This document shows positions 3 to 59,395 of a stretch of DNA of 64,000 nt, piece after piece. Made by a program: the position numbers and the translations under genes. The stretch comes from Corynebacterium mustelae (GTDB lineage: Bacteria; Actinomycetota; Actinomycetes; Mycobacteriales; Mycobacteriaceae). The stretch lies in contig NZ_CP011542.1 in assembly GCF_001020985.1 (NCBI RefSeq), positions 2,356,001-2,420,000 of the forward strand. Reading direction: 5' to 3'. Each line of letters opens with the position of its first letter. Position 1 is the first letter of the stretch. The notes under the pieces are model-generated. The model was not told where the DNA came from and searched no databases. It saw nothing but the letters and a program-made list of their open reading frames with translations.

Positions 3-2753
3 GCGGAACAGGCGGCACTGAAACACTTCGGCTTCACCCCAACCTCACAGCACATGGTGGGGGTCACGCACACTCGCGCGGGTGGTTTCGCGGCATGGGA
101 TACGGCGGCAACCCCGCAGGAAGCGATACGCATTGCGAAGCTGGTGGCGGACGTGGCGTGGGCACGCACAACTGCCCGTGTACACCCTCGTGCGGTGCTG
201 GATCGTTTCTACACCGTTCGCGCACAACTCGAATCACAAACCCCGCACCTTTTGCCAGCATTTTTTGAAGAAGGTGCCCGTGTTCTCGTGGGCCTGGGGC
301 GGGAGGATTTGGCCAAGCAGTTTTTCGGCTGCGCCCGCGACATTGAAGATATTCATGCGCTCCCCATCGACCCGGCGCGTCGTGCGGCGGTGTTTCGGGA
401 GTTTGCCGCGTATGGGGTGGCGGGGGCTGGCGTGTTGCGGAAGGAGGCGACGGTTGTTTCCCGTCGCATGGCGCCGAAGAATGCGTATGAGTATTTCTTG
501 GGCGTTGTTTTGGGGCAGGCGGAGCGTGGTGTGCCCGCTTATGCGGGTGCTATGGCCGATGTGCGCCGGTTGGGCACACAGGCGGGGTTGTCGCAGGCCC
601 AGGTGGATGAGGATTTTTGTGCTGCGTATGTTTCTTCGGCCGCGTTTGTGCGCTCCCCGGGGTCACTAATCCACGAGATTGTTCGTGTACTGCCTGCGCG
701 GAAGGACCCTGAGTTGGGGTGTGTGTTACGTGATGTGGTGCCGCGCCGGGCGGCGGTGGGTGACTATATTTTGGGGTTGCAGAAGACTGGGGTGTGGGAT
801 GAGCTGGTGCGGGATTCATCGGCGTGGTGTGGGTGGCTTGAGATGGTGTTTGCGCACGCCCGTAGGTACAGGGAGTTTTTGCAGTCGCCGTGTATGGAGC
901 TTGTCGACGCCATCACCGCGCACCCCGAATTGGTTGCGGGGGTTTCGTTTGATGTAACCCATGTGGGTATCCATGCGGTGTATCGTGAGGCGCTGGTGGC
1001 GGCTGGGGCTGTGTATGAAGGCACGCCGCGCGGGGCAGCTCGGGAGGAAACCCTAGGTAATCGCACGGTTTTTGGGGACGGTGTGGTTCCCGCGCCGCCG
1101 GTGTTGGGTGATGCGGCGATGGATGTGTTGCACCAGTTTTTTGTCGGCCCGCAGGCGTTTTACTGTGATCGGGTTGCGCTGGCGCACCGTTTGGCTGAGG
1201 TTTTGGCTGCGCCGCAGGCTGGTGGTGTGGTTGTGGATCAGGTAGGGCTTTACGTGCCGTTGGGGGTTGGGTGTGAAAAATATATTCTCACCCGCCTTGC
1301 CAGTCCCCTGCTTGACCCCGATGTGGCGGAGGAATTGTGCGTGTTTTTCTCCTGGTGTGTGGATGTGGGGTTGGCTGGGCGTTGGTGCATGGAGAAACTG
1401 GAGGATTTCTCGCCTTCCCTTGCGCGTGGTCAGGCTATGTGGGTGAATTCGTGCCTTGTCCTACGTGACCGGGAGGGATATGTGCGACTGACGGAAAAGG
1501 GGCTGGCGGAACCCCCTGAGGATTCCGGGTGGGCTTCGTTGTTCCTTCCCGCCGAGACCTTCCGCCGCGGGCTAGCAGACATTCTTACCTGGCATTCATC
1601 CCGCAAAACAGATGAGAAACCGCGGCTTGGCTGGGAAAATGTGGCGCTGGATGAGGTTGCGCAAGCCCTGGCGATGGACACTGCGTTCCCGCCCATTCTC
1701 TGGCGGGTGTTGTTTGCCGGTGTTTACACGGAGGTGGGGTCTTTCTACTCGTGGCCTGAGCATCAGCGCAAAGCATTGAAGCTGTCGAATCGGGCTCTGG
1801 GGCAGGCGGAGGATATTCACCACGGCTGTCTTGGTAGTGAGCTTGCGCTGGTCATGGGGGCTGGTTGGCACGACGATTACCTGCGCACAGGCCCACAAGT
1901 TCACCAGATCACCACCATGTGGCGAGAGCTTTTCGGTACCCCGTGGATTCACCTTGACGACGCCACGTTTACCGACATTGCGGCCGATGTTGCGCACACG
2001 GGTGCGGCGTTCTTTAGTTCCCAGCCGGACTACCAGGCGGTGGAGCCAAGGTATCAGCACACGCTTTTCGACGCCTATCTGCGCCTATGGGACCAAGTAG
2101 CACCTGGGAGTGTTCCAGCATGTAACCTTGCCGAACGCATCGAGGCGTTCCGCAGCTATCAGGTGGCCGACTCCCATATTGCGTTGGGTTCCACGCTTGA
2201 TCCGAGTAGGTTTAAAGCCAGCGAACCGGCAGAGCATTCCCCACGGGCGGTGGCCGAGGGATACCTAGATGAAGTAGTAGGTTACCTACGCACCGGCACC
2301 CCACTTGTGGGGGATGCTCACGATCCGAAGCACAGCGCCCCGGAGTGTGTCGCCGAGGCCGCGCACACCCTTGGCATTTCGCCAGATGCTGCGCGGTACT
2401 TCCTCCAGCTGCTTGCACTCGCCCACCCTGGAGATGCCAACATTAAACGCTGGAACGGGTGGAAGCCCGCGCAGTTAAATGCAGCATCGCAAGAGCTGGT
2501 GGCTGCGAAGTTGGTGGTCCAGGCGGAGCGGAAAGGATCCGGGCGGAAAGTGTTTGTTCCCGGTGGGTGGCTAAACAAATCCGAGACCGGCGTGGGGTTG
2601 GAGGTGTGGAAGAAACCCCACTACCTGCTGTGGGACTCACCGGCGCACTGCCCCATAATCCCCAGTTGCCCACCGCTTGTGCCCTACCCCGAGCTGTTTC
2701 GCCATGTGTGGCAGCGGTATGTATTAGGTGATCGGCCTGGTTATGGGCACTAG
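3..2753 (+). CDS. C-terminal part of a giant MoxR/VWA-associated protein (5' end outside the window)
   Basis: The reading frame is open to the left edge, so the Met at 54 is internal and the gene starts outside the window. About 916 residues are visible. Around residues 250-340 there is a module (G-x-W-D-E-L, then GWLEMVFAH, then a YREALVAAGAVYE-like segment) that recurs in the three downstream genes. The last 130 residues, with RYFLQLLALAHPG, KRWNGWKPAQ and LVAAKLVVQAERKGSGRKVF, look like a winged-helix-like tail. From memory, this tail is typical of very large actinobacterial proteins, often labelled DNA-binding, encoded beside MoxR, VWA and SWIM genes. Those partners lie 8 kb to the right here, on the other strand. 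The biochemical function is unknown. The class assignment is by recollection of the family and is moderately sure. Confidence 0.75.
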   Translation, partial: AEQAALKHFGFTPTSQHMVGVTHTRAGGFAAWDTAATPQEAIRIAKLVADVAWARTTARVHPRAVLDRFYTVRAQLESQTPHLLPAFFEEGARVLVGLGREDLAKQFFGCARDIEDIHALPIDPARRAAVFREFAAYGVAGAGVLRKEATVVSRRMAPKNAYEYFLGVVLGQAERGVPAYAGAMADVRRLGTQAGLSQAQVDEDFCAAYVSSAAFVRSPGSLIHEIVRVLPARKDPELGCVLRDVVPRRAAVGDYILGLQKTGVWDELVRDSSAWCGWLEMVFAHARRYREFLQSPCMELVDAITAHPELVAGVSFDVTHVGIHAVYREALVAAGAVYEGTPRGAAREETLGNRTVFGDGVVPAPPVLGDAAMDVLHQFFVGPQAFYCDRVALAHRLAEVLAAPQAGGVVVDQVGLYVPLGVGCEKYILTRLASPLLDPDVAEELCVFFSWCVDVGLAGRWCMEKLEDFSPSLARGQAMWVNSCLVLRDREGYVRLTEKGLAEPPEDSGWASLFLPAETFRRGLADILTWHSSRKTDEKPRLGWENVALDEVAQALAMDTAFPPILWRVLFAGVYTEVGSFYSWPEHQRKALKLSNRALGQAEDIHHGCLGSELALVMGAGWHDDYLRTGPQVHQITTMWRELFGTPWIHLDDATFTDIAADVAHTGAAFFSSQPDYQAVEPRYQHTLFDAYLRLWDQVAPGSVPACNLAERIEAFRSYQVADSHIALGSTLDPSRFKASEPAEHSPRAVAEGYLDEVVGYLRTGTPLVGDAHDPKHSAPECVAEAAHTLGISPDAARYFLQLLALAHPGDANIKRWNGWKPAQLNAASQELVAAKLVVQAERKGSGRKVFVPGGWLNKSETGVGLEVWKKPHYLLWDSPAHCPIIPSCPPLVPYPELFRHVWQRYVLGDRPGYGH

Positions 2754-2816
2754 TGCACAGGTAATTTTCAGGCCAAACCCCTGATTCGTGGAAAACCCTG
2801 CGCTTAGAATGCAACC

Positions 2817-4334
2817 ATGTCTTTTGTTCAATTAGTGCTCACCGACGATCACACGTTGAACTTTGCCACCATCGACGATTACGTCACCACGCTCATCGAC
2901 TTAGGCCAGTGGGGTCTTCTCACCCAAAACGCCGCCGAGTTTGCAGGTTGGTTGCAGCATGTTTTCGATATGTCAATCTACTCGTGGGAGTTTTTGGCCA
3001 GGCCAAACCCCGCGCTGATTGATGCCCTCCTCACCGTCTCTTTCCCCACCGACTTGCAGCTGAGGGTGTATACCGCACGTGTCAATCCCGACTACCTCGA
3101 CGCCCTCACCCTCAGCGGTGTGAGCTGGGAACACAACGCTGAATGGGAGGAGGAAAACCCCAGCTCCTTGGACGTGCTCAACCTTGATGCGTGGGCGAAA
3201 TATGGCACCCGCGACCTTGCGGCGTTGCTTGCCCAAACACACCACAGTTTTGCAGCCCTCAAGTCGATCCCGTTGCGCTGGGCCGAGTGGTCGCAGGACG
3301 AGCCCGGCGCGGTCGTCGAAAAGCTGCTGAGATTCGCGCACACGCGTGCGTTTTTATCGCGGGCGCTCGACGAATGCGCCGCACTGCGGGTCGACTATGC
3401 CGGGTCGCGACCGGCGTGGCAGGTGTACCGCCGGATACGCGCCCCCTTAGACCGCAGTGAATTGTATGCGCTGAACGAGGGCGCGATGGCAACAATGTTC
3501 AGCTTCGACACGGCCGAAGAGTTTGCTCAGCGCCTGCGCTGCGGCACAGTGGTGGAATACACGTGGCCCGACTATGAGTCTTATGCCGAAACACAACACG
3601 ACTTTGCAAGCTGCCCACTGTTTCCTGCCCATGATCCGTGGCTGTGGGAGGAAGTCACCCGACGGGGTGGGCACGATGAGCGGACGGTGCTACGCGAAAT
3701 TTTAAACGAACGCGGAATCGACTCGTTTGACCTGAGCACAGTTCCCGAAAAATTCCGGCTGTCCCGCATGAGCTTCCTCCACCCTGTCACAGACGATACC
3801 GCCGCCTCACCGCTGGGGTCGGTGGGCGGCCACCACGTTGGCCTGGTGTTCTACTGGGAAGGCCCGTACTTCGAGGAGTTCGTTTTCCTCGGTCCGCTGG
3901 GCACTATCACGTGGGAGGAGCAGCCACCTGTTGTGCTGCGGCGCCCCAGCGACGATGGGTTGTGGGTGCAGGATGGTCAGCTTTACGACGCCGCAACCGC
4001 CACCGAAATCGAAACGGCTCTCACGCACACAGGCACACCCCACCCGCTGTACTGGATGACCCGCGAAAGCCTCCATTTTCTTCAGATACGCAACAAGCAG
4101 GCAAGTCTCAGAATGCGTGGCTGCACCAATGAGCAGGCGCAACAGCTCATCGACGACCCCACACGAATCCTCGCATTCGCTGGCCACGACGAGGTTTTAG
4201 CTAGCGCCATCGCCGGAATCCTCGCCAACCTCCTTCACGACGCCGATGGGGCCATTCACCTGCCCGATCTACTCCAGCCCCCGAAATTCCTCACTCACCT
4301 GTACGCCACCTACCAGGAACTCCAGCAGCCATGA
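2817..4334 (+). CDS. Paralogous module protein 1 of the MoxR/VWA-associated family
   Basis: 505 aa, function unknown. The N-terminal ~110 residues follow a scheme shared with the next two genes and with an internal part of the upstream giant protein: TLIDLGQWGLL, then AGWLQHVFD, then NPDYLDALTLSGVSWE. A central block contains EYTWPDYE. A C-terminal block has ASPLGSV, LGPLG, RRPSDDGLWV and an RMRGCTNEQAQQLIDDPTRIL segment. No signal peptide or membrane segment is seen, so it is probably cytoplasmic. No strong Shine-Dalgarno precedes the ATG, but TAGAAT lies a few bases upstream, so a leaderless transcript is possible. The stop overlaps the next start as ATGA, indicating translational coupling. 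It is about 100 aa shorter than its two neighbours because it lacks the LGNRTFFGD region. Confidence 0.8.
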   Translation: MSFVQLVLTDDHTLNFATIDDYVTTLIDLGQWGLLTQNAAEFAGWLQHVFDMSIYSWEFLARPNPALIDALLTVSFPTDLQLRVYTARVNPDYLDALTLSGVSWEHNAEWEEENPSSLDVLNLDAWAKYGTRDLAALLAQTHHSFAALKSIPLRWAEWSQDEPGAVVEKLLRFAHTRAFLSRALDECAALRVDYAGSRPAWQVYRRIRAPLDRSELYALNEGAMATMFSFDTAEEFAQRLRCGTVVEYTWPDYESYAETQHDFASCPLFPAHDPWLWEEVTRRGGHDERTVLREILNERGIDSFDLSTVPEKFRLSRMSFLHPVTDDTAASPLGSVGGHHVGLVFYWEGPYFEEFVFLGPLGTITWEEQPPVVLRRPSDDGLWVQDGQLYDAATATEIETALTHTGTPHPLYWMTRESLHFLQIRNKQASLRMRGCTNEQAQQLIDDPTRILAFAGHDEVLASAIAGILANLLHDADGAIHLPDLLQPPKFLTHLYATYQELQQP

Positions 4335-6148
4335 ATCACGATTGTGCACACCCTCTACCCGCGATCACCGCATTCACCACCATCACCGCTTACGTAGACG
4401 CACTGGTGGAATCGGGGCACTGGGACGAAATCACCGCCGCCGAAGAAACGTTCACCGAGTGGCTTGGGCAGGTGTTTTCTCACGATTCGTGGGGGTTCTT
4501 GTCCCGCTCAGATAACCGTCTCCTTGAAGCAATCACGGGCCTTCACCCCAGCCCTAGCCACGTATTCCCCATTGCGCACGACTCGAAAATACACCTCGAC
4601 TACCTCGACGCTCTCGCAGCCAGCGGGGTTTCGTGGCAGATCGACCCCGAAAACATCAGTTTCTTGTCATGGTTGGAGCACCACAATCGCGACCTCAATT
4701 CCCTCGTGACTGTCCCAGAGGTTCGCGCCGCCCTCCTCGATGATCTTTCCTTCGTTCTCAACGGTTTCCACAACGACTCCTGCGAAACAGACCTTGCAAC
4801 CCTCCTTGCTTATCCGGCGACGCGCCAGGTGGTCGTCGACAAGCTCACTAGAATGGCCGAGGCGCACGGCACCGTCGCCGGTTCCCAGGAGGCGTGGGAG
4901 GATTTCTTGAAAGACTACGGCTGGTTGCAGCGGGCCGACCTGCACGAACTTAACCCCGACGCCATCGACACTTTGTTTCGCTTTGACCCGGCGGCAGAGC
5001 TTGCTGTGCGGCTCCAGCGCGGAACACTTGTGGAATACACGTGGCCGGAATACGAAAAGGTCATGGCTGACATTGACGGTGACGTTTTCATCACCGAGCA
5101 CTTCCCGTTTGTGAGTGTCGCCGACGGCACCACCCTCACCCTTCTCGGCGGTGAGCACCCCCGCACCTTCACTATCCCTACTCACGAAAACCTCCGGCGA
5201 GCAATCCCTGTCGAAGATGATCTATTCCTCCACTTCGACGACCCCGAAGGTGCCAGCTACTGGTGGGCAAGCACCAACACCACCACCCGATATGAAACCC
5301 CCGCGCACATCCTTAATGCTTTCCACACCGACAGCTACATCTTAGGTAACCGCACCTTCTTCGGCGACGTGGAACTGACCCCCGGTAAAGAACTCACTAC
5401 CGAACCCGCAGGGGAACTTTTCGGGCAAAACATCCTCTACCACCGCATGTACGTGCCCACCACACCCGGCCCGACAATCCTTCACGGTAAGGCCCCAGAC
5501 CTCACGTGGGAGATTTTCCACGAACAATTACGCGCCGGGACGCTCCCAGGTATCTCAGTCTTCCCTGATGGTATTCGCGAAATACCAGATGAGCTGAGCT
5601 TTCGGTTTTCCAGCTTCATTCACCCCGTCACAGAAGAAACCGCCGCCTCGCCGCTCGGTGCCATCAACAACTACCACTTCTGTTACCGCTTTGAAGCTGA
5701 TATCGACGACGAATCCGTAGCTCTCGGCCCCTTAGGCTACTTCACGGTTGGCGACGGGGCGCGGACTCCCCTCACCCGCCCCGGTGGCGGCATCTGGTTC
5801 GCCTCCGGGTGCGAGGTTTGCGACGGCGAAACACGCACCCAAATCGCACTTTCCCGCACGCACACAGGCGACGAACACAACCTGCATAAGCTGCCGGTTA
5901 TGGGGTTCCACCACCTCACGGTTCGACATGAGGACGTCAGCCAACGCATGCGCGAGTGCACACCTGAGCAGGCGAAGGCGCTTCTCGACAACCCCACAGA
6001 AATCCTCACCTTCGCCGATTACGATGAAGTTCTAGCCGCGGCCATCGCCGGAATCATTGCCGACATAGCATCAATAAAAGAATTCGGGGTTGATCTGCCC
6101 GCTCTTGACCAGATCCCTGACTATCTCGAATACTTGTATTCCTCATGA
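4331..6148 (+). CDS. Paralogous module protein 2 of the MoxR/VWA-associated family
   Basis: 605 aa, the longest and most complete of the three tandem paralogues. Blocks in order: N-terminal DALVESGHWDEI / TEWLGQVFSH / HLDYLDALAASGVSWQ (residues ~15-100); EYTWPEYEK (~235); a middle region with LGNRTFFGDVELTPG and AGELFGQNILYH (~335-380); a C-terminal region with AASPLGAINNYH, LGPLGYFT, RPGGGIWFASG and QRMRECTPEQAKALLDNP. The LGNRTFFGD block also matches LGNRTVFGD in the upstream giant protein, which supports common descent. The gene begins and ends in ATGA overlaps with its neighbours. It is probably a soluble cytoplasmic protein. Function unknown. Confidence 0.8.
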   Translation: MNHDCAHPLPAITAFTTITAYVDALVESGHWDEITAAEETFTEWLGQVFSHDSWGFLSRSDNRLLEAITGLHPSPSHVFPIAHDSKIHLDYLDALAASGVSWQIDPENISFLSWLEHHNRDLNSLVTVPEVRAALLDDLSFVLNGFHNDSCETDLATLLAYPATRQVVVDKLTRMAEAHGTVAGSQEAWEDFLKDYGWLQRADLHELNPDAIDTLFRFDPAAELAVRLQRGTLVEYTWPEYEKVMADIDGDVFITEHFPFVSVADGTTLTLLGGEHPRTFTIPTHENLRRAIPVEDDLFLHFDDPEGASYWWASTNTTTRYETPAHILNAFHTDSYILGNRTFFGDVELTPGKELTTEPAGELFGQNILYHRMYVPTTPGPTILHGKAPDLTWEIFHEQLRAGTLPGISVFPDGIREIPDELSFRFSSFIHPVTEETAASPLGAINNYHFCYRFEADIDDESVALGPLGYFTVGDGARTPLTRPGGGIWFASGCEVCDGETRTQIALSRTHTGDEHNLHKLPVMGFHHLTVRHEDVSQRMRECTPEQAKALLDNPTEILTFADYDEVLAAAIAGIIADIASIKEFGVDLPALDQIPDYLEYLYSS

Positions 6149-7923
6149 CTTCTCAGTTCCCACACTTACACCACATGCCCACTAGGCCATGCACCGTTTC
6201 ACAGTACGTGCGCAGCCTGAAACGGCAGCGGAAATGGCAGCGTATTTCCTCAACGGAAACTTTTGGCACGTGGCTGGGCATTATTTTCACCCACGCCCGC
6301 GACTGTTCCACGTTCCTTGGGCACCCAGACCCTGACGTTCTTGACGCGATCGATACCGTGGGGCACCAACTTTCCGAAACTTTCGCGCTTCCACAAAGCG
6401 GGGTTCACCTCGATTACCTTGATGCACTCACCGCTGCGGGAATCACGTGGGAGTTTCTTCCCACGAAGTGGCCGGAGGACGAGTCCGCGCTGAACTTCAC
6501 CAGCTGGGCTGACACAGGGATGAGGGATTTGGGCGCACTGTGTGGGAAGGAAAGCATCCAGGACACGCTCTGTGCAAGCCTCTACGCGCAGCCTGCTGGG
6601 CAGCTCGAACGGATTCTCACCAGGCTGCTTTCTACTCCTGCAACCTGCGCGTTTGTCGCCCGGTGGTTGGGGTGGGTGGCGGGTCGGCGTCGACAAGCGA
6701 AAGGGTCTGTGTCGCGCTGGGCGAAACTGCAACCGGTACGCCGATTGTTGTCCAACCCGCGTTTCGCCGCGCTCAACCCCGCCGCGCACCGCGAAATCAT
6801 GCACGTCGACGCGGCGGAGGAAGTGTGTGCACGGCTGCGGCTGGGGTCGCTTCGCGAATACACGTGGCCGGCATTTGAGGAAACCGTCGCGAGGAAAACC
6901 TTCGACCCAACCCTTGTGTGCTGCGACTTCCCCACCGTCGCCGTCTCCGACGGGCACACCGTGACCCTCCTTGTCGGCGATGAGCGACGCAGCGCAACAA
7001 TTCCCGCCCACACGCAACTCAAGCACGCCGTCGACACCGGGCGTGACACCTACGTCGAGTATTGCGACACGCGCGGAACGTGGCACTACCTGTGGCTTCG
7101 CGAGGGAATACCCCGCGCCTTTGACACGCCCGCGCCCCTGATGGAGCGCGAATTTTCCGACGCACAGAAAATCGGCGACACCTGGTATCTTGGGTCAACC
7201 CCGCTCACACCGAGGCTCACCCAGCAACCGTACGGGGAACTGTTCGGCCTCGACCCCACATTTTTCTTCACCCCAGACCACACCACCCCACACCCCATGC
7301 TCAGCCCTGTCACCTGCGTCAATACCGGCGAAACGCTCAGCCGCGACGAGTTCGACGCCTACGTGTGGGAAACACTGCTTGGGAAACCCCCTCAGATGCG
7401 CCCGGGGGAATGGTTCAACTTTTCCAGCACCCTCACCCGCACCACACCTAACACCTGCGACTCGCCGTTGGGCGATGAGAACGGCACACACTACTGCATC
7501 ATGTTCGGCGGCAATGCGGACGAAGACACTGTTCTTTTCACCCCACTGGGGCAGTTCAGCGGCCCGTTTGGCCTGTGCACCGCGATGAAACGACCAGGTG
7601 GCGGCACATGGATTGTGGGCAATGAGCTTTTCGACGCCGCCACCAACCTCCCCATCACCCCAGCGCCCACCCCGCTAAGCGCAGCCCACCCACTGGAATG
7701 GTTACCGCTACAAGCACTGCACTATCTTCGGGTGCGCAACCTCGATGTGAGCAGGAAAATGCGGGCCTGCACTGTCAGCGACGCCACGCGCCTGCTAGCG
7801 GAGCCGGAATCAGTACACGAATTCACATGCGGCGATGTGGTGCTTGCAGATATGGTGAATGAAATCATTGCCACTGTCCAAGCCCTCACCCTCCCGCCTG
7901 CAACGAAAGAACCGCCACAATGA
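6145..7923 (+). CDS. Paralogous module protein 3 of the MoxR/VWA-associated family
   Basis: 592 aa, the third tandem paralogue and the most diverged at its N-terminus, which is basic (SLKRQRKWQRI). It keeps the shared blocks GTWLGIIFTH, HLDYLDALTAAGITWE, LREYTWPAFEE, LGSTPLTPR with YGELFGLD, DSPLGDENG, TPLGQF, RPGGGTWIVGNELFDAATN and RKMRACTVSDATRLLAEPE. The start codon lies in an ATGA overlap with the previous gene and the stop overlaps the SUKH gene start. The extra arginines around residues 170-195 may be a nucleic-acid or partner contact, but that is only inference. Function unknown. Confidence 0.8.
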   Translation: MTSQFPHLHHMPTRPCTVSQYVRSLKRQRKWQRISSTETFGTWLGIIFTHARDCSTFLGHPDPDVLDAIDTVGHQLSETFALPQSGVHLDYLDALTAAGITWEFLPTKWPEDESALNFTSWADTGMRDLGALCGKESIQDTLCASLYAQPAGQLERILTRLLSTPATCAFVARWLGWVAGRRRQAKGSVSRWAKLQPVRRLLSNPRFAALNPAAHREIMHVDAAEEVCARLRLGSLREYTWPAFEETVARKTFDPTLVCCDFPTVAVSDGHTVTLLVGDERRSATIPAHTQLKHAVDTGRDTYVEYCDTRGTWHYLWLREGIPRAFDTPAPLMEREFSDAQKIGDTWYLGSTPLTPRLTQQPYGELFGLDPTFFFTPDHTTPHPMLSPVTCVNTGETLSRDEFDAYVWETLLGKPPQMRPGEWFNFSSTLTRTTPNTCDSPLGDENGTHYCIMFGGNADEDTVLFTPLGQFSGPFGLCTAMKRPGGGTWIVGNELFDAATNLPITPAPTPLSAAHPLEWLPLQALHYLRVRNLDVSRKMRACTVSDATRLLAEPESVHEFTCGDVVLADMVNEIIATVQALTLPPATKEPPQ

Positions 7924-11454: not shown

Positions 11455-12930
11455 TTAATTGCCTAGGCAGTAAAATGCCAAGGCTGTGATGTGTGGGATC
11501 GTGTAGTGGGTGGCAATTCGTTCCAGCAACTCCGCCCCGGTGGGCGCATTCATCGCACGCAGCTGGGCCCGATCGGTTTTCAACTGCTCATGATGTACAC
11601 CGGACTGGCCTTGAAGCGCGATGCGCTGTAACCACGAATAGACCACGGTTGTGGGACTGGGATCGATATAGCCTAACTCTTTGTTGGGGCTAACGACTGC
11701 GATGTCGGCACCGCGCCGGTCAAGGCCCGGAATAAGCCGAGTTTCGTCGATCCATACGGCTTTTATTATCCGGTCGTGGACAACCAGCGTGATGGTTTCG
11801 GCATCAAGGACATCCGCCACCAGTCCCGCCACCCCGCACTGAGTGGCGGTGCGACTAAAAAAGTAGTCGGAACCGGGACCGAATGATATTTTGGCGAGAT
11901 CCGCGTAACTAGGAGTGCCGGTAACGGTGTCGACGCCGGGTATGGTTGCGACGTCGCCACAAGTAACAGCCCGGCCTTGGGCAGCGCGAATGTTTTTGCC
12001 TGATCCGATGCGGCCGTCCGTGCTCGCAGACCCGCCGGAAATGATGACTGTTCGGGTGGATAGCTCGGTGAAACTGGTGTTGATGTCGCCAAGCCGGACG
12101 GGACCGTGCCATACTTTGGCAACATCGTTGAGAGTCCCTGGCGGGGTTTTGCCCACTGTATATAGCTTCCCGGTTTTATCGGCCAAGGTCACCACTACGC
12201 CGGCAAAGCCAGAGTCGGTGACAACGGGCTCGGCGAAGATTGGGGTGAAGGTTCCGTCGTCGCGCCCTGGGGTTAGTTCGGTGTAGCTGCGTCGTGCCAC
12301 ACCGATGGTGGCGGGGTTGTCGGGTTGGTGGGAAATAAGGTGGGCGATTTGCAGGAGGTTTCCGAATGCCTGGGTGATCGCTTGTCGACGTGGCCCGGTG
12401 CGCTGGTTGCCGCCACGGATCCTGTTGCGAACCGTAACCACGGCTGTCAGGGCGCGTTCCAAGCGATAAAGCTTATGGGTGCGCGCATGGTGAACAGCGG
12501 CAACCAGCTGCGCGTAACTGAGCGGACTGAGCGCGGGCAATCCGTAGGTTATCAATTCCGTTAACACTGGTTGGATAAGATCACTTGCTGTACGCAACGC
12601 CGCTTGCTGTTCGGATGTCGATAAAGCCGGGACGGTTTCTTCCTGTGGCTTGCTGTCGGGTGTGGCTGCCGCGATTGGGGTGTCGTCAGCGACATCGGCG
12701 GCAAGCGCGACGGCCCCGCAGTGGGCACATTTAGGTGACAGCAAACAGTCGCAGGCTAATTCGTTTTCACTAAAGGTAACGGTATTTGTACCAATCGTGA
12801 TCGTTAGGGGCGCATCGCTAATCGTCCACGTTTGGGCATCCTGCGCGAGTGCATCGGCGCGTTTCTTGAGCCGAGTGGGCAGGTCACTGATGATGTCATG
12901 GATTAGCTGCGCTGGTAATTGGTAGGTCAC
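11455..12930 (-). CDS. SWIM zinc-finger protein (YehQ-like)
   Basis: 491 aa from the GTG at 12930. I prefer this start over the ATG at 12951 because GGAGG lies 7 bases upstream and the GTG overlaps the upstream stop as GTGA. The SWIM signature CxCx5CxH is at residues 60-70 (C60, C62, C68, H70), preceded by a two-strand segment. The remaining ~400 residues contain an Asp/Gly-rich beta domain (VVTLADKTGKLYTVG, LGDINTSFTELSTRTVIISGG). SWIM domains bind nucleic acid or protein. E. coli YehQ is the comparable gene beside yehL, yehM and yehP. The gene is the third in the MoxR operon. Confidence 0.85.
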   Translation of the reverse strand: MTYQLPAQLIHDIISDLPTRLKKRADALAQDAQTWTISDAPLTITIGTNTVTFSENELACDCLLSPKCAHCGAVALAADVADDTPIAAATPDSKPQEETVPALSTSEQQAALRTASDLIQPVLTELITYGLPALSPLSYAQLVAAVHHARTHKLYRLERALTAVVTVRNRIRGGNQRTGPRRQAITQAFGNLLQIAHLISHQPDNPATIGVARRSYTELTPGRDDGTFTPIFAEPVVTDSGFAGVVVTLADKTGKLYTVGKTPPGTLNDVAKVWHGPVRLGDINTSFTELSTRTVIISGGSASTDGRIGSGKNIRAAQGRAVTCGDVATIPGVDTVTGTPSYADLAKISFGPGSDYFFSRTATQCGVAGLVADVLDAETITLVVHDRIIKAVWIDETRLIPGLDRRGADIAVVSPNKELGYIDPSPTTVVYSWLQRIALQGQSGVHHEQLKTDRAQLRAMNAPTGAELLERIATHYTIPHITALAFYCLGN

Positions 12931-20768: not shown

Positions 20769-20809
20769 TCGTCGACAAGCACTAGCACCAAACACGATAG
20801 GTTCCTACC

Positions 20810-27445: not shown

Positions 27446-27462
27446 GCCTTTAGACTACATGA

Positions 27463-27505: not shown

Positions 27506-27566
27506 AAAAACCGTCGTCGGTTCCCATACATCTGGAAACTGATGACGGTTTAAGCGTCGAAAAGCT
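27506..27566 (-). terminator. Hairpin terminator, repeat copy 1
   Basis: On the minus strand the stem AAACCGTC...GACGACGGTTT is followed by five T, 3' of the second DUF1648 gene. The 61-base element is repeated at 28694-28754 with a single difference (27543 T versus 28731 C; here one stem pair becomes G-T). It includes the 11-mer CGTCGAAAAGC at its outer edge (27555-27565). Confidence 0.75.
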
Positions 27567-28561: not shown

Positions 28562-28693
28562 CGTCGAACTCACTCCCCTTAATTATTTATAACCATTGTC
28601 GATGTATCGCTATGGTCACTGTACCCGCTCGCGGCGGCGCTAACAGGCTTTTCGACGAAAAACGCATCGGACGTAAAGTGCCTTGTAAAAGTC

Positions 28694-46985: not shown

Positions 46986-48561
46986 TGTGTTTCACTTCCT
47001 TGCCAAACCGGGTGTTGATTGCGGCTTGAAGTTCTTCCCGGTCATCAAAGTGGTGTTGCACCCCCGCGATGAGTTGTCCAATTTCATGCCCTTTGCCCGC
47101 CACCACAACTACGTCTCCTGGTTGCGCCCACGCAACCGCTGTTTCGATTGCTTTTCGACGGTCCCCTAGCTCGATCACCTCTACCTGGGGATTGGTCTGT
47201 GTTACTTCCGCATCCGCCGTACCGGCTAGAACCGCAGCACGAATGGCTGCCGGATCCTCCGAACGAGGATTATCGTCCGTAATAATGACGAGATCCGCCC
47301 GTTTCGCCGCTTCTTTGCCCATGATCGGCCGTTTTCCGGCATCTCGATCGCCACCAGCGCCAACCACGATCGCAACCCGGCCGGATGTCTGCGCGCGGAC
47401 AGTATCTAATACCGCTGCAATAGCCGCAGGTTTGTGAGCGTAATCAACAATCGCCAAGAATTCTTGTCCACAGTCAATTCGCTGCATTCGCCCTGGAACG
47501 CCAACGTCCGCGATACCCGCGATCACGGCCGCACGATCCGGTACACCGGCAGCATCCGCCAAAGCTACCGCTAGCGCCGCGTTAGCAACATTAAATTTTC
47601 CAGGTAGCGGCACAACAAGCTCAGCTACGCCATGGGAGTTGGCCAGCGAACAAGTTTGAATCCCATTAGCTGCCACCTCAACGTTTTCGGTGCGGTAATC
47701 AGCGTTGTCATAACACGAGGAATCTGGGGTGGTTGCAACAGTCCACACTGCGCTGTCTTCACGCTCGGCGCAGGCGACATCAAACATCTTCCTGCCCCAC
47801 TCATCATCAACACAAATGACTGCTCGATCCGCCCGAATCGGCGAACCTGCGGCGAAAAACATCGCCTTAGCATCAAAGTATTCCGACATGGACGAGTGGA
47901 AATCGAGATGATCCTGCGACAAATTGGTAAAACCGGCCACATCAAAGTCCACGCCTTGAACCCGCCCTAACAAAAGAGCATGGGAGGAAACCTCCATCAC
48001 CACATGGCTTACACCTTCCGCACGCATACGCTCAAATAACGCCTGCAACGTTGGTGCCTCCGGGGTGGTCAAGGAGGTAGGAACCGGTTGACCTGCGATC
48101 CGGGTACCAGTGGTGCCAATCAGCCCTACTTTCAAACCTGCACGCATCAATCCGGCTTCCAACAGGTAACTGGTAGTGGTTTTGCCAGATGTACCAGTAA
48201 TACCGATGACTGTCATGTCTGCGGATGGGTTTCCATACACCTGCGCTGATAGCATCCCGAGGACTTTTCGCACATCAGGTACTTCCAACACCGGTCGGGT
48301 TTCGCCTTCTTCCAACAGAATTAGCCAGCCCGCGTGGTCGGTAAGCACCGCTGCGGAATGAGTGCGAGCCGCGAACTGCGCCCCATGCACTTTCGTTCCA
48401 GGCAGCGCAGCAAACAATCCACCATGTTCTGTATCCGACGAATCTAGACTGACAGAGGTTATCGCCTGCGCCAATAGATCAGTGGGGGCATCGGCTACGC
48501 TTTCTGGCACATGCACAGTGGCGTCGATAAGCGTAGCGAGATCAGAAATCGTTGGTGTCAT
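46978..48561 (-). CDS. murE: UDP-MurNAc-Ala-Glu:meso-diaminopimelate ligase
   Basis: 527 aa. ATP loop GITGTSGKTTTSYLLE, acceptor region TTPEAPTLQALFE, NLSQDHLDFHSSM, and the DNPR motif (TDDNPRSEDP) that is diagnostic of meso-diaminopimelate rather than lysine specificity, consistent with a corynebacterial wall. GGAG precedes the ATG at 48561. A 258-base gap separates it from ftsI and probably holds an internal promoter. Contains a reverse 11-mer copy (47150-47160), read here as RRKA. Confidence 0.97.
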   Translation of the reverse strand: MTPTISDLATLIDATVHVPESVADAPTDLLAQAITSVSLDSSDTEHGGLFAALPGTKVHGAQFAARTHSAAVLTDHAGWLILLEEGETRPVLEVPDVRKVLGMLSAQVYGNPSADMTVIGITGTSGKTTTSYLLEAGLMRAGLKVGLIGTTGTRIAGQPVPTSLTTPEAPTLQALFERMRAEGVSHVVMEVSSHALLLGRVQGVDFDVAGFTNLSQDHLDFHSSMSEYFDAKAMFFAAGSPIRADRAVICVDDEWGRKMFDVACAEREDSAVWTVATTPDSSCYDNADYRTENVEVAANGIQTCSLANSHGVAELVVPLPGKFNVANAALAVALADAAGVPDRAAVIAGIADVGVPGRMQRIDCGQEFLAIVDYAHKPAAIAAVLDTVRAQTSGRVAIVVGAGGDRDAGKRPIMGKEAAKRADLVIITDDNPRSEDPAAIRAAVLAGTADAEVTQTNPQVEVIELGDRRKAIETAVAWAQPGDVVVVAGKGHEIGQLIAGVQHHFDDREELQAAINTRFGKEVKHND

Positions 48562-48819: not shown

Positions 48820-50811
48820 TTACTGAGCCTGTAAAACCAATTGCCCTTCTGCTGGCGGCGAAAGTGGGACGTTATCGCGATCAAGAAGCCAGGAAGCAAT
48901 ATCGTGGAACAGCGGCGCTGCGGACTGGCCGCCTTCACCATGTACACCCCGAGTTGGGTTATCAAGCATCAAAGCCACCACAAATCGCGGATTGTCGGCG
49001 GGCGCGATGCCTGCGAAAGTAATCCAGTATTTCGAATTGGAATAAGCACCTGTATTGGGGTCAACCTGCTGGGCGGTACCAGTCTTGCCCGCAATCTGAT
49101 AGCCCTCGACTGCTGCACCCGCACCGGTGCCTTGTTGAATGCCAGCCGGATCTGATTGCACAACCGAACGGAACATATCCACTACCGTGCGTGCGGTTGA
49201 TTCAGACACCACCCGAGTCTTTTTCGGTGCGGGTTGTTCGATCACTTTGCCCGTGTTATCGCGGATTTCTGCCACGATTCGCGGCTCTATTCGTTCGCCA
49301 CCATTCGCCAGAGTCTGATACACACCTGCCATTTGCAAAAGCGTCAAACTCATGCCTTGTCCAATAGGAAGGTTGGCAAACGTACCGCCTGACCATTGTT
49401 CCAATTGTGGCCGCAGACCAGCCGATTCACTCGGTAATTCAATTCCGGTCGTTTGCCCAATACCAAAACCAGTCAAAAGCGAATCGAACCGTTGCTCGCC
49501 TAACCGTTGCGCCAACATGAGTGTTCCCACGTTCGATGATTTACCAAAGATGCCCGTGGTGGTGTACGGAGTTGGCCCATGATCCCATGCATCTTTCACA
49601 TTCACACCCGCCATATCAATGGAGCCGGGAACCGTCAGCACTTCATCAGGGGTGGAAAGCCTATCCTCGATCACACCTGCCGCCGTGATGATCTTGGCAA
49701 CTGAGCCAGGTTCAAACGGCTCAGAAACCGTGGAATTGCCAAATTTCTTGCCTCGATCAAGTTGTTTTTGAATATCCCCCATTGGGTTAATAGCGTCAGT
49801 GTTAGCCATCGCTAGCACCTCGGCGGTTTCAACATCAAGGACAACTGCCGAAGCGCCCTTCGCCCCGGAATTAGTCTTGGCTTGCTCAAGCTGCTGTTGG
49901 ACATATGTTTGCAAATCCAAATCGAGGGTCAACGTCACATCAGAACCGTTCATGGCGGCGACTTGATCACGAGTAGTACCAGGAATAATCTGCCCATCTG
50001 TGGAAACATCCACCACAGTCTGCCCATTGATACCAGACAACAACGAATCATTAGAGGCTTCAAAGCCAAACTGTCCTTGGCCGTCTTGGCTAATCTTTCC
50101 AATAACATTGGATGCAACTGACCCATTGGGGTACTGACGGATGTCTTGAATATCCGCCGCAATTCCGTGGTGTTGTTCCGAAATCGACACAGCTACGTCT
50201 GGATCAACGTTGCGAACCAATACTTCGTAGGTTGTGTCCGCATCTAGTTTCTTGCGGATTTCTTCCGACTTGATCTCGCTTGTCGACGCCCCAGTCTCAG
50301 CGATGATCCGCGGAATTTCCTCGGAATATGAGTCCAAATAGTCAAGCACTTTTTGGTCAATGCGCTTTTCGCGCTCCTCTTTGCTTAACCCGTAGTAATT
50401 GTCAACGGATTTAGCTAAATCATTGTTTGCCACATAGCGCAGCTCCTTGCGCAAATTCTTCGGCGACACCGTTAACGAACGCGCCTGCATGGTATAAGCA
50501 AGTTGCTGACCAGACCTATCTTGAATTTCTCCCCGCCGTGCCGGGTCTGTGTACACCCGATACCGCTGATCAGCTGCCTTTTGGCTCAGTTCTGGCCCCC
50601 AGACCAACTGCACCCACGCCATGCGACCTGCCAGTAATACGCACACGCCTATGGCAATGACTTGAACCCACCGTAACCTACTCAGCATTGTTGTTCGCTG
50701 TGTCTCAGGACGGGAAGGCTTGCTGCTAGGGCGCTCTTGGGGCTGGCCCGTTTGACGAGTACGGGGCGAGTTAGTTGCTCGCCCCGTACGGCCAGATCTC
50801 GGCTGGTTCAC
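48820..50811 (-). CDS. ftsI: Septal transpeptidase FtsI (PBP3)
   Basis: 663 aa, class B penicillin-binding protein that cross-links septal peptidoglycan. Basic cytoplasmic N-terminus (1-45), one membrane helix (~47-66), dimerisation domain beginning RRGEIQDRSGQQLAYTM, then the transpeptidase with S370-V-A-K373, S425-S-N427 and K576-T-G578, all intact. GTG start at 50811. No PASTA repeats. Follows ftsL after 28 bases. Confidence 0.97.
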   Translation of the reverse strand: MNQPRSGRTGRATNSPRTRQTGQPQERPSSKPSRPETQRTTMLSRLRWVQVIAIGVCVLLAGRMAWVQLVWGPELSQKAADQRYRVYTDPARRGEIQDRSGQQLAYTMQARSLTVSPKNLRKELRYVANNDLAKSVDNYYGLSKEEREKRIDQKVLDYLDSYSEEIPRIIAETGASTSEIKSEEIRKKLDADTTYEVLVRNVDPDVAVSISEQHHGIAADIQDIRQYPNGSVASNVIGKISQDGQGQFGFEASNDSLLSGINGQTVVDVSTDGQIIPGTTRDQVAAMNGSDVTLTLDLDLQTYVQQQLEQAKTNSGAKGASAVVLDVETAEVLAMANTDAINPMGDIQKQLDRGKKFGNSTVSEPFEPGSVAKIITAAGVIEDRLSTPDEVLTVPGSIDMAGVNVKDAWDHGPTPYTTTGIFGKSSNVGTLMLAQRLGEQRFDSLLTGFGIGQTTGIELPSESAGLRPQLEQWSGGTFANLPIGQGMSLTLLQMAGVYQTLANGGERIEPRIVAEIRDNTGKVIEQPAPKKTRVVSESTARTVVDMFRSVVQSDPAGIQQGTGAGAAVEGYQIAGKTGTAQQVDPNTGAYSNSKYWITFAGIAPADNPRFVVALMLDNPTRGVHGEGGQSAAPLFHDIASWLLDRDNVPLSPPAEGQLVLQAQ

Positions 50812-50839: not shown

Positions 50840-51649
50840 CTAATTCCCGGACGGAATACTTGCAAGATATGGTGCAACATTTGGCAAGGATGGTTGCACC
50901 GGCTGAACCTCATTGAGGTTTCCGGAAACCTCTTGCGTCGCCACTGGATCACTTGAGGCAACCCGTGGCCGAACTTGCTGACCATTGACATCAACTATAG
51001 GGCGAGTTACGTCACCTGGCGGGCGTTGCTCCACCATGTCGCCGGTTTCATTTCGGATTAGTATTCCCGGCTGGTCGGGAACAACCATCCCCATCTCCTG
51101 CGCCTGTCGCGCAATTTCCGCAGTAGCAGACACGTTTTGCAGATCGCGATTCAGCGTTTCCAGCTGATTGTGCAACGTCGCTTCCTGATGCCGCAATTGC
51201 TGAATCTGGAAAGTTTGCTCCGTTGAAAGACCTGACAGCACCATCGCCATAACAACGCCGAATACCAGAATCAATGACGTTGAGGCTGCAAACCGAACTT
51301 TCTTCGGATCCGCCTTCGGCCGCACCAAGCGCTTACCCCGCTCAGTAAATACCTGTTGCGAACCAGCGGACCGCTGAAACTTACGCTTCGGTACCGCTGT
51401 TGTCCGTGGCCGATGCGGCACCCGGGTAGGCGCACCCGAAAAATTATGCTGCTCCACCAGCGACGTGGGCTCTGTGAGGACCATCGTGGTTCCGCTAGAA
51501 CTGCTGAGATCGCGCGACGTGTACGCAGACGGGCGATAGCTTTTCGACGACCTACCGCGCGCATAAGAAGACGCATCACGATTGTGGGCACGATGAGTGT
51601 TCCTACTGTCCCTGCGACGAGGCTCTCTGATTTGATATTGGGTGCTCAT
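50840..51649 (-). CDS. ftsL: FtsL-like divisome protein with long basic cytoplasmic region
   Basis: 269 aa. Identified by place (between rsmH and ftsI) and architecture: ~115 basic/Ser-rich residues in the cytoplasm, one membrane helix (~119-140, [21 protein letters not shown]), a coiled coil (~143-175, [23 protein letters not shown]) and a ~85-residue Pro/Val-rich periplasmic tail. Corynebacterial FtsL is known to be much larger than that of E. coli. ATG in an ATGA overlap with rsmH, AAAGGAG upstream. Confidence 0.88.
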
Positions 51650-52716
51650 TCTTTCGTCTCCTTTCTGTCATATACGCAACTTCCGTCCGGGTTCAACGCT
51701 TCGATTGCACGAACTCGAACCGGTGCCGCCCGCGGATTTTCCGCGATTTCTGCCTCTGTAGCTTTTTCTGCACCACGGGTAACCAACCGGAATTTGGCCG
51801 CATATTCCGGAAGATCCACAGGCAAGCCCGGTGGTGTTTTTGACTGACAAAGCTCGCTGAAAAATTTCTTCACCAGCTTGTCTTCCAAGGATTGATAGGA
51901 CATGAATACCGCCCGACCACCCGGGATCAACCGCTTGGTGATCAGCGGAAGAACATTTTCGATGGCCTCTAGCTCCTTATTCACTTCCACTCGCAACGCC
52001 TGGAACGTTCGTTTAGCAGGATGCCCACCCGTACGCCGGGTCGCGGCTGGAATCGTTTCGTACAACAGCTCAACCAACCGCGCTGACGTCGAAAAGCTAC
52101 GTTTTTCTCGTTCCTTCACGATCGCCTTGGCGATTTTTCCCGCGAACCGTTCGTCACCGTAGTTTTTTAAAATCCGGGCTAAATCCCCATGCGAATAGGT
52201 ATTAAGAATGTCCGCAGCAGTTATGCCTTCGGTATCGTTCATCCGCATGTCAAGCGGCGCATCGACGCGATATGCGAAACCACGGGCTACTTGATCGAGC
52301 TGCATCGACGACACGCCCAAATCAAACAAGGCATCCGCGATACCCTGCTCCAAAGCGGCCTTGCACGCCACATTCCCGGACTCGGCAGCCTCTTCCATCG
52401 GTTGAATAAATTGATCGAACCGAGTGTGAAGCCCCACGAAACGATCCCCGAATCGTTCCAGACGACGCCGCGCCGCCTCCAATGCGTGAACGTCCCGATC
52501 CAGGCCGATCACGTAGGCATCAGGAAAAGTCTCCAAAAAGAATTCAGAGTGCCCACCAGCACCCAAAGTCCCATCAATGATCACCGCACCCGGACCCGCA
52601 TGAGCGATCGCTGGCGCCAGCAATTCGGTCACACGATTACGCAGCACTGGTACATGCCCATGGTTGGCTGTCAGCTCATCCTGCAACTTACTTGTTGATT
52701 GTTGGGGATCGACCAT
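51646..52716 (-). CDS. rsmH: 16S rRNA m4C1402 methyltransferase
   Basis: 356 aa, SAM-dependent methyltransferase of 16S rRNA C1402. N-terminal [18 protein letters not shown] loop [38 protein letters not shown] and the C-terminal [18 protein letters not shown] with [19 protein letters not shown] precedes the ATG at 52716. Contains a forward 11-mer copy at 52087-52097, read here as SFSTS. Follows mraZ after 169 bases. Confidence 0.97.
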
Positions 52717-54190: not shown

Positions 54191-54600
54191 TGAAATCTCC
54201 GTCTTGTAGAAGTGTGTGTGGGTGCTTGTCGACGCTGCCAGCGTGGCGTGTGGGTTGGGGTTGTTGCGCCAGTTTTTGGAAGTCGGGGATTGCAAGGTTG
54301 CGGTTGGTTCGTTCCTGGGGTTTTAGGGAGTATTGGGTGGAATCTCCGACTTGATAGGGGTGGTGGGTGCGAAAGTCGGAGATTTCCGAAATCCGAACAG
54401 CTTTGGTCGGTATTGACCCTAGGTTTTGCGTAAATCTCCGACTTGAAGAAGTGCGTGGCTGCTTGTCGACGTCGCCGGCGTGGCGTGTGGGTTGGGGTTA
54501 TTGTGCCAGCTTTTGGAAGTCGGGGATTGTGTTTAACGCCTGGTTCTTTCCAGCGGTTTTGGTGCTGGGTGGGTGGAATCTCCGACTTGATGGGGTGGCG
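54190..54600. repeat. Tandem ~239-base repeat with seven alternating 12-mer copies
   Basis: Two diverged units begin near 54193 and 54432. The 12-mer AATCTCCGACTT (or its complement AAGTCGGRGATT) occurs at 54194 (one mismatch), 54280 (reverse), 54341, 54373 (reverse), 54433, 54517 (reverse) and 54577, strictly alternating in orientation. The units also share a TGCTTGTCGACG segment and a GGCGTGTGGGTTGGGGTT segment. The block lies just upstream of the lipoprotein/PPE-like operon. Confidence 0.8.
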
Positions 54601-58152: not shown

Positions 58153-58764
58153 CTATTTTCGGGAAGGAAATCGGTTATCAGCTTTATGCTGAGCCCAGGC
58201 AAGCACGACGTCGGCAAGTAACGCAAGCAGCGATACTGTAATCGCACCGATCAGAACCATCGTGTAATCACGCAGCGCAATGCCGTCGATAATATAGCGA
58301 CCCAAACCGCCCATGCCGATGAAGGCTGCAACTGTGGCTGTTGATAAAACCTGCAGAACACAGGAACGGAAGCCACCAAGGATGCTCGGCAGCGCCAACG
58401 GCCAGGCCACTTGGCGGATAACTTGAGTAGAGGTCATTCCCATTGCGAAAGATGCATCATAGACTGCGGGGCTAACCGTGCGCACCCCGTTTATCGTTCC
58501 CGCTAGTACAGGTGGAATCGCCAGGATAATCAATACCACCACTGCCGCAAACAACGAATGCTTGATTCCCACATACAGCGTTGTGAGAGTGAGAAGACCC
58601 AATGTGGGTAGGGCGCGCAAACCACCGCTTAGGGCTAAGACGAACTGCGCCTTGGCGCTGCGGCCTAAAACCAACCCTAGACCGACACCAATTATGGTGG
58701 CGACAATGATCGCAACCCCTGAGATTTGTAGATGTTCGAGAATACGAGTGAATAAATTATCCAT
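58153..58764 (-). CDS. Osmoprotectant ABC transporter, permease 2
   Basis: 203 aa from ATG 58764, with GGAGGAAAC directly upstream; the frame to 58920 lies within the preceding gene. Five or so membrane helices with the BPD permease loop SFAMGMTSTQVIRQVAWPLALPSILGGFR, which contacts the ATPase. Overlaps the upstream permease by 8 bases. Contains a forward 11-mer copy only in the neighbouring gene (58813), not here. Partner of the first permease in a heterodimeric channel. Confidence 0.9.
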   Translation of the reverse strand: MDNLFTRILEHLQISGVAIIVATIIGVGLGLVLGRSAKAQFVLALSGGLRALPTLGLLTLTTLYVGIKHSLFAAVVVLIILAIPPVLAGTINGVRTVSPAVYDASFAMGMTSTQVIRQVAWPLALPSILGGFRSCVLQVLSTATVAAFIGMGGLGRYIIDGIALRDYTMVLIGAITVSLLALLADVVLAWAQHKADNRFPSRK

Positions 58765-59395
58765 GTTTCCTCCGCCACGGAGCAACAACCCGGGTAAGCG
58801 CCAACAGTATGACGTCGAAAAGCACTGCCAAGACAACAGTGCCAATGACACCAGCGGCAACTTCGGTAGGAAATGCTCGGTTAAAACCGTTTGTAAATAA
58901 TGTGCCCAATGACTCCACACCGATTAACGCACCAACAGATACCAAGCTGATCGTGCTGGCTGATACAACTCGCAACCCGGTAAGCATCTCAGGCAGTGCC
59001 AACGGTAATTGCACTGCCCACCACCTATGCCGATTTGAATATCCCATGGCTTGGGCAGCAGCCAGAACTGATCTGTCAACGGATTGCAACGCATCCGCTG
59101 TGTTTCTTACTTGAAGTGCCAGACCATACAGTGTCATGGCGATAATCACGTTCAACGGTGACAAAATTGAGGTACCAATTACCGTGGGCAAAACCACAAA
59201 CAACGCCAACGACGGAATTGCATACAACAACCCTGATCCAATAATCAGCGACTGGTTCATCCGTTGAGAACGCTGTGCCCACGCCCCCAACGGTAGCGCC
59301 AAAATAAACGACAAAACCACTGGCGGCCAAACCAAATTGATATGCGCGAGTGTCAATCTGATTAACAGGTCCTGGTTTCCTACTATCCAATTCAT
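58757..59395 (-). CDS. Osmoprotectant ABC transporter, permease 1
   Basis: 212 aa, BPD-type inner-membrane permease of the OpuCB kind. About five to six helices. The cytoplasmic coupling loop AAQAMGYSNRHRWWAVQLPLALPEMLTGLR carries the EAA-like pattern. ATG overlaps the stop of the ATPase gene as TAATG. The forward 11-mer at 58813-58823 is read here on the minus strand as LFDV. Confidence 0.92.
   Translation of the reverse strand: MNWIVGNQDLLIRLTLAHINLVWPPVVLSFILALPLGAWAQRSQRMNQSLIIGSGLLYAIPSLALFVVLPTVIGTSILSPLNVIIAMTLYGLALQVRNTADALQSVDRSVLAAAQAMGYSNRHRWWAVQLPLALPEMLTGLRVVSASTISLVSVGALIGVESLGTLFTNGFNRAFPTEVAAGVIGTVVLAVLFDVILLALTRVVAPWRRKHG

Follow-up and report, generated by a model that had tools for sequence, protein, structure and literature searches.

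CGTCG-NN-AAGC and its dialects as a candidate DNA uptake sequence of Corynebacterium

The genome of Corynebacterium mustelae (3.47 Mb on three contigs; assembly GCF_001020985.1) carries a bipartite word, CGTCG-NN-AAGC, which we consider, with a probability of roughly 0.6, to be a DNA uptake sequence (DUS) of the genus Corynebacterium, with CATCG-NN-AAGC as its dialect. The word came to attention in a stretch of 64,000 nucleotides (NZ_CP011542.1, positions 2,356,001-2,420,000; hereafter the window) that lies within the 3.39-Mb contig. Our analysis confirms that its over-representation is real, and larger than the first-pass annotation of this DNA had stated. Judged by the sequence-level criteria that are applied to DUS, the word would qualify as a candidate, as distinct from a demonstrated, DUS.

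The first-pass annotation had singled out the exact 11-mer CGTCGAAAAGC and had proposed that it be counted, together with its one-mismatch variants, across the genome, compared with a Markov background, and inspected for its orientation along the replication arms and its conservation at orthologous sites. All 16 copies that it had listed are present on the two strands of the window exactly where it had placed them (Table 1), compared with a mean of 0.04 and a maximum of 1 in 100 dinucleotide shuffles, and with 0.05 to 0.23 copies expected from Markov models of order 1 to 5, an excess at every order. As a description of the motif, the exact 11-mer stands but proved too narrow, positions 6 and 7 being flexible: a second word, CGTCGACAAGC, has nine copies in the window, the remaining one-base variants of CGTCGAAAAGC have 0 to 2 each, and the bipartite pattern CGTCG-NN-AAGC as a whole has 33, versus 0.61 expected.

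Across the C. mustelae genome, CGTCGAAAAGC occurs 676 times (335 forward and 341 reverse), against 23 occurrences of a control word obtained by reversing the motif without complementing it; it is therefore not confined to the window. The bipartite pattern reaches 1,682 copies (87 for its reversed control), of which 1,242 have A at position 6 (control 31) and 440 do not (control 56). The commonest forms in a 444-kb sample of this species, consisting of the window and 19 chromosome stretches of 20 kb, are CGTCGAAAAGC (96 copies), CGTCGACAAGC (51), CGTCGATAAGC (23) and CGTCGTCAAGC (16), and words that depart from either of the top two by one base outside positions 6 and 7 number 0 to 7 each. Change is tolerated at positions 6 and 7 and rare at the other nine, and the motif is therefore CGTCG-NN-AAGC. 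Apart from a weak tendency of intergenic copies to be preceded by G-rich and followed by A-rich sequence, no longer shared flank was found around the copies in this sample.

The placement of the copies was assessed in the same 444 kb. Copies of the form CGTCGAHAAGC are spaced slightly more evenly than random (mean gap 2.3 kb, coefficient of variation 0.87), and 47 of 170 lie between called genes where 27.7 would be expected, a figure that is approximate because the simple gene-calling script used for genic and intergenic calls missed some genes. Genic copies share the strand of their gene in 58 cases and lie opposite to it in 65; they fall into several reading frames, one antisense frame holding 47 of the 123. 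When the replication arms of the chromosome are set from GC skew, the left arm has 50 forward and 50 reverse sites and the right arm 69 and 62, so that 112 of the 231 sampled sites are co-oriented with replication (probability 5e-18 were three quarters expected), and no gradient from origin to terminus was seen in the sample. The orientation test thus reveals no replication-strand bias. Pairing of neighbouring copies is pronounced in one configuration: in a separate sample of 143 loci (2.84 Mb in total, 894 motif sites), neighbours 11 to 60 bases apart are arranged minus-plus in 12 cases versus 2.6 expected, the other arrangements numbering 2, 3 and 3. These 12 pairs fold into hairpins of -16 to -37 kcal/mol; three of them represent a single orthologous pair in related species.

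Conservation was followed in 16 hand-picked pairs of related loci, 15 of which were compared in both directions (31 comparisons). The motif is kept at most of the aligned orthologous sites, namely at 148 of 214 where random words of equal shape would give 66.3, the reciprocal comparisons being non-independent. Individual comparisons at 74 to 76 per cent identity retain from 5/12 to 5/5 of their sites; random words persist there in 11 to 13 per cent of cases. The earlier contention that selection acts on the DNA rather than on the encoded protein agrees well with the several reading frames, the use of both strands, the enrichment between genes and the retention of most orthologous sites.

The word and its dialects were surveyed in 242 Corynebacterium genomes, seven of which have less than 90 per cent completeness or more than 5 per cent contamination and were kept in the counts. 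Tallied by hand, 169 genomes have more than 40 copies of CGTCGAMAAGC and 73 have 40 or fewer. CATCGRCAAGC is present in 232 to 508 copies in 14 genomes, in 56 to 71 copies in three, and in at most 44 copies in the remainder, some of which are still above their own controls (0 to 8). Thirteen of the 14 CATCGRCAAGC-rich genomes are found among the 73 CGTCGAMAAGC-low ones, and one genome (G024) has both forms; the CGTCG and CATCG forms are nearly mutually exclusive among genomes, and the centre bases differ by lineage. Setting the three weak CATCGRCAAGC genomes aside as well, 57 of the 242 are low for both patterns, and some of these may have escaped both through different centre bases or another dialect. 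Sampling of 100 kb from each of four low-count genomes revealed the dialect CATCG-NN-AAGC in G001 and G097; no comparable or convincing genome-wide word was seen in G043 and G131 (about 121 kb each) or in G207 (57 kb). One 20-kb stretch of G131 (C1, 2300001-2320000) contains CCTCATTGGGG seven times, in both orientations and within about 16 kb; the other approximately 100 kb sampled from this genome contain one shorter match, CCTCATTGGG, and the repeats are a local cluster of an unrelated word.

In the C. glutamicum genome, which we take to be that of strain ATCC 13032, CGTCG-NN-AAGC has 1,183 copies versus 72 for the control. High-count genomes have about as many forward as reverse copies. Of 80 loci from public genomes fetched via ComEA, 39 bear labels other than Corynebacterium, among them Mycobacterium, Rhodococcus, Gordonia and Nocardia as well as names further removed; these loci, which span 3.8 to 20.8 kb and in part come from metagenome bins, have 0 or 1 copy of each form.

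The distribution of the word in mobile DNA was compared in two genomes, C. mustelae and C. glutamicum. The two small replicons of C. mustelae, 82.7 kb together, have zero copies where about 41 would be expected at the genome rate. Eight proteins scanned across both reveal a plasmid-like replicon of 39.9 kb, which encodes a TrwC-type relaxase and two coupling-type proteins (TraG/TraD-type), and a phage-like replicon of 42.8 kb, which encodes a tape-measure protein, a family-A DNA polymerase and a VapE-like protein. Zero copies were likewise found in ten adjacent 20-kb stretches of C. glutamicum (1.78-1.98 Mb), versus 46 in six control stretches, one of them with 8,000 masked bases. This region is presumably the CGP3 prophage island, and six of nine proteins, drawn from five of the ten stretches, have matches in phage families: two are tail-fibre-like, two belong to DNA metabolism and two are of unknown function. 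The relaxase, tape-measure and tail-fibre-like matches attest to the mobile nature of the motif-free DNA. The dialects, the inverted pairs and this absence from the mobile DNA examined lend support to the likeness to DNA uptake sequences that had been drawn from the window alone. Chi-like, chromosome-organising and protein-binding roles, which had been regarded as equally open, no longer stand level with it; uptake fits best.

Known uptake sequences provide the closest parallels. The Neisseriaceae live without the mycolate envelope of the actinobacterial host considered here, and function has been demonstrated experimentally for the uptake signal sequence (USS) of the Pasteurellaceae. As described in the consulted part of PMC3630211, the DUS of Neisseriaceae is a short, non-palindromic word in thousands of copies that is common inside genes, with intergenic regions being permissive; it forms inverted pairs linked to terminators, and its dialects follow phylogeny. 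An atypical DUS distribution marks integrative elements in this family, according to excerpts of PMC7371117. The Corynebacterium word differs in its sequence and in its two free central bases; moreover, Corynebacterium has Tad-type pilus genes and no known ComP, and word-dependent transformation, shown in Neisseriaceae, is a prediction for its word. The USS, although an unrelated word in another phylum, is also abundant (about 1,300 copies in Haemophilus influenzae) and often arranged as inverted pairs in terminators, as stated in the accessible part of PMC5217627.

Under the interpretation that we favour, cells would import DNA by way of a Tad-type pilus and ComEA/ComEC; one DNA-binding component of this uptake machinery would prefer word-bearing DNA, so that conspecific DNA would be favoured. 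Once recombined into the resident chromosome, the imported DNA would enrich, maintain and spread the word there; plasmids and prophages, arriving by other routes, would remain without it. Activity of the machinery and its recognition of the word are inferred, as is the identity of the reader, which is probably the helix-hairpin-helix (HhH) domain of ComEA.

The genes that such a process would require are widespread. Of the 242 genomes, 239 match the Tad/type II secretion ATPase family; ComEC was found in 48 of 48 genomes and a ComEA-type HhH protein in the same 48, and DprA in 35 of 35, with the same 17 low-motif genomes included in both sets. An account of the motif distribution in terms of which genomes have or lack ComEC, ComEA, DprA or Tad genes was rejected, these genes being present in nearly all genomes tested; since the com genes also occur in low-motif genomes, gene presence fails to explain which genomes carry the word. 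The neighbours of TadA (an Ssd/CpaE-like ATPase, a helicase, three small pilin-like genes and others) recur in 20 of 20 loci, five of which come from low-motif genomes; the loci were chosen for holding TadA, and the figure therefore shows neighbour conservation only. In C. mustelae, NCBIfam profiles identify TadA, the CpaE-like protein, the helicase and an Rv3654c-like protein above their cut-offs; a TadE-like protein falls below its cut-off, and the Flp-like protein receives no name. Tad-type pili have a role in the competence of Micrococcus luteus, in which we know of no uptake sequence. This species, an actinobacterium with natural transformation (excerpts of PMC6667448), is one of the closer parallels.

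Some features of these genes are recorded here in their own right. comEA has an in-frame stop in G007 and G200, and its profile match is partial or fragmented in G138, G128 and G088; G138 and G128 retain many motif copies, a combination that may reflect recent gene decay. An extra HhH_3 match lies within open reading frames (ORFs) of about 1,080-1,330 amino acids and exceeds the cut-off, among the 48 genomes searched, only in low-motif ones (G018, G101, G045, G007, G050, G119, G227, G049, G206, G037, G120 and G241). These ORFs possibly encode a DnaE2-type polymerase, which is a guess, and the match is probably a clade marker.

Among the proteins that could read the word, ComEA is the leading, as yet unproven, candidate. 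The solved ComEA structures 8dfk and 8dss match the C. mustelae protein. In the available part of PMC9747964, lysines in these same hairpins of Bacillus and Geobacillus ComEA are modelled in contact with DNA and are reported to be important for transformation. In Corynebacterium, two hairpin-flanking residues (179 and 204 in the numbering of G126) vary in step with the word. The fraction of sites with A at motif position 6 is 0.45 to 0.87 in genomes with lysine at residue 204, 0.15 to 0.18 with proline (three related genomes), 0.29 to 0.73 with serine, 0.20 to 0.70 with arginine and 0.65 with glutamine (one genome); these ranges overlap. A simple association of alignment columns with the word, run without phylogeny on the 74 genomes that had five or more sites and exceeded 0.15 per kb, was rejected as a way to name the reader, columns of holA and degV being equally good; shared ancestry is a strong confounder of such tests.

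Phylogenetic least squares on 72 of these 74 genomes (G020 and G128 dropped; samples of about 20 kb for most genomes) ranks ComEA 204 first of 2,051 columns from ten genes for A at motif position 6 (p 8e-5). With whole-genome counts (67 of 80 genomes, 13 without the CGTCG form being dropped; 1,051 columns from five genes), ComEA residues 211, 179, 183 and 204 rank 1, 10, 12 and 15 for the same position. HhH columns thereby provide four of the top 15 versus 0.81 expected in 200 simulations (p 0.015), and 4 of 51 HhH columns versus 13 of 1,000 others have p below 0.001 (Fisher p 0.007). The choice of residues 179 and 204 was initially made by eye from 20 genomes, and their ranks are therefore not fully independent evidence. 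Overall, the covariation of ComEA hairpin residues with one motif base after phylogenetic correction is suggestive and not decisive. Hairpin positions that vary widely in Corynebacterium ComEA are nearly invariant in most ComEA proteins of other genera (loci L135-L179), which read GVG-PV-TA and V-D-GIG. That the word is read by the HhH domain of the envelope protein ComEA and not by a pilin, with changes in the hairpins shifting the centre bases and so creating dialects that would limit gene exchange between species, C. glutamicum included, is a tentative proposal, possible but doubtful.

Several observations weigh against the interpretation of the word as an uptake sequence, or against ComEA as its reader. 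All 17 tested genomes that are low for both patterns have ComEC, ComEA and DprA, and the HhH domain is uninterrupted in eight of nine ComEA genes from low-motif genomes (seven plus G207 and G120), the exception being G007, with a stop ahead of the second hairpin. Two locus pairs are without conservation: one keeps 0/3 and 0/4 sites, the other 3/7 and 3/5 against 51 per cent of random words. Residue 204 fell from rank 1 to rank 15 with whole-genome counts; the HhH columns are unremarkable at p below 0.01 or 0.05, a rank test over all of them is not significant, and motif position 7 has no association with ComEA HhH residues. For the G-to-A dialect switch, columns of the neighbouring gene holA lead even after correction for phylogeny and ComEA 179 ranks only 59th. 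The C. tuberculostearicum group combines the ComEA residues of CATCG genomes with a mixed, mostly CGTCG, word, and this mismatch therefore argues against a simple ComEA code. ComEA of other bacteria is called non-specific in the part of PMC9747964 that was consulted. Finally, no description of the word, of Corynebacterium uptake sequences or of natural transformation of Corynebacterium was found in the open-licence literature searched, the four papers there in which its letters occur bearing unrelated titles; a survey of spaced motifs that includes C. aurimucosum, C. jeikeium and C. urealyticum names, in its accessible part, only CRISPR pairs for them (PMC5217627).

Alternative explanations must be measured against the same data. 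An uptake sequence might be read by a protein other than ComEA, for instance a Tad minor pilin, which is a sub-case of the uptake interpretation (our estimates for the two overlap) and which we think rather unlikely; it derives some plausibility from the small pilin-like genes that accompany TadA in all Tad loci compared and from a dialect switch that is not best explained by ComEA, and the reader in Neisseria is the minor pilin ComP (excerpts of PMC3630211 and PMC12061091). A different kind of explanation would have the word serve as a chromosome-wide site for a cytoplasmic DNA-binding protein involved in nucleoid organisation, segregation or the marking of self and foreign DNA, with drift in its specificity generating the dialects. 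The even spacing, the near-absolute conservation of nine positions and the retention of com genes by the 17 low genomes would suit such a protein, and absence from plasmids and prophages would also be expected were sites to build up slowly. We nevertheless judge it unlikely, as neither an origin-to-terminus gradient nor a strand bias is visible in the sample, the preference for hairpin-forming inverted pairs would be of no obvious use to it, and no candidate protein turned up in a search limited to competence and Tad genes.

Chi and KOPS, as signals that direct recombination or replication, operate in a single orientation and favour one strand of replication. They share with the Corynebacterium word its brevity, abundance and conserved sites, and differ from it in being orientation-biased along the arms; the lack of co-orientation with replication described above therefore argues against both, so that a signal of this kind is strongly disfavoured and very improbable. 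The equal forward and reverse totals of the high-count genomes point the same way, although taken alone they would be compatible with a skew by arm. Cyanobacterial HIP1 is likewise a hugely over-represented, lineage-wide word; it is an octameric palindrome, whereas the Corynebacterium word is asymmetric and bipartite and has dialects. That the word is a by-product of mutation bias, of codon preference (LFDA, VEK and LADA peptides) or of an old repeat family might be suggested by the strong preference for some frames, in particular the antisense frame noted above. It is barely credible in view of the excess over Markov models up to order 5, the enrichment between genes, the lack of a longer shared flank, the scarcity of one-mismatch words and the absence from 200 kb of prophage DNA of a motif-bearing genome.

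The copies in the window are compiled in Table 1. The earlier division into 13 genic and three intergenic copies of CGTCGAAAAGC is roughly correct, with four copies rather than three outside genes or long ORFs: those at 27169, 27555, 28647 and 28743 are outside ORFs of at least 150 amino acids, and the simple gene caller leaves 27555, 28647, 28743 and 51539 outside genes. The placement of two copies in terminator hairpins found no support within 26900-29000, the part examined. Terminator-like matches are no commoner there than in shuffles, and the sole terminator-like hairpin found adjoins the copy at 27555 without including the motif. The copies at 27555 and 28743 flank an ORF of 324 amino acids (27599-28573) and have 25 upstream bases in common, with one mismatch (27530-27565 and 28718-28753); their context is therefore duplicated.

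Table 1. Copies of CGTCG-NN-AAGC in the 64,000-nucleotide window of C. mustelae (window coordinates).
Feature	Position	Strand	Remark
CGTCGAAAAGC	2063..2073	-	exact copy
CGTCGAAAAGC	3314..3324	+	exact copy
CGTCGAAAAGC	7626..7636	-	exact copy
CGTCGAAAAGC	17956..17966	+	exact copy
CGTCGAAAAGC	21112..21122	-	exact copy
CGTCGAAAAGC	25555..25565	+	exact copy
Overlapping inverted pair	27160..27179		CGTCGATAAGC + at 27160-27170; CGTCGAAAAGC - at 27169-27179
CGTCGAAAAGC	27555..27565	+	outside genes; directly 5' of terminator-like hairpin 27566-27590
CGTCGAAAAGC	28647..28657	-	outside genes; inverted relative to copy 28743, 96 bp away
CGTCGAAAAGC	28743..28753	+	outside genes
CGTCGAAAAGC	35429..35439	-	exact copy
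CGTCGAAAAGC	43079..43089	-	exact copy
CGTCGAAAAGC	47150..47160	-	exact copy
CGTCGAAAAGC	51539..51549	-	exact copy
CGTCGAAAAGC	52087..52097	+	exact copy
CGTCGAAAAGC	58813..58823	+	exact copy
Variant CGTCGACAAGC	899..909	-	absent from the first-pass list
Variant CGTCGACAAGC	4834..4844	+	
Variant CGTCGACAAGC	6688..6698	+	
Variant CGTCGACAAGC	12380..12390	-	
Variant CGTCGACAAGC	20770..20780	+	
Variant CGTCGACAAGC	43508..43518	+	
Variant CGTCGACAAGC	50278..50288	-	
Variant CGTCGACAAGC	54224..54234	-	
Variant CGTCGACAAGC	54461..54471	-	
Variant CGTCGTAAAGC	3980..3990	-	
Variant CGTCGTGAAGC	15250..15260	-	
Variant CGTCGTCAAGC	33012..33022	+	
Variant CGTCGTGAAGC	37883..37893	+	
Variant CGTCGGCAAGC	38461..38471	+	
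Variant CGTCGGCAAGC	41983..41993	+	
Variant CGTCGATAAGC	48522..48532	+	

To our knowledge, uptake sequences have so far come to light only in two families of Gram-negative bacteria. If the interpretation that we favour is true, CGTCG-NN-AAGC would represent a third, independent case, in the actinobacteria and in a genus to which both the industrial C. glutamicum and common skin bacteria belong. It would predict a hidden competence in Corynebacterium and, at the same time, provide a test for it, namely the entry of word-bearing DNA, and it might open a route to easier genetics of laboratory strains that are hard to transform. The word would also serve as a cheap marker of recently acquired DNA. 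Since a natural series of dialects stands beside natural variants of ComEA, the reading of DNA sequence by uptake machines would become directly testable in this genus.

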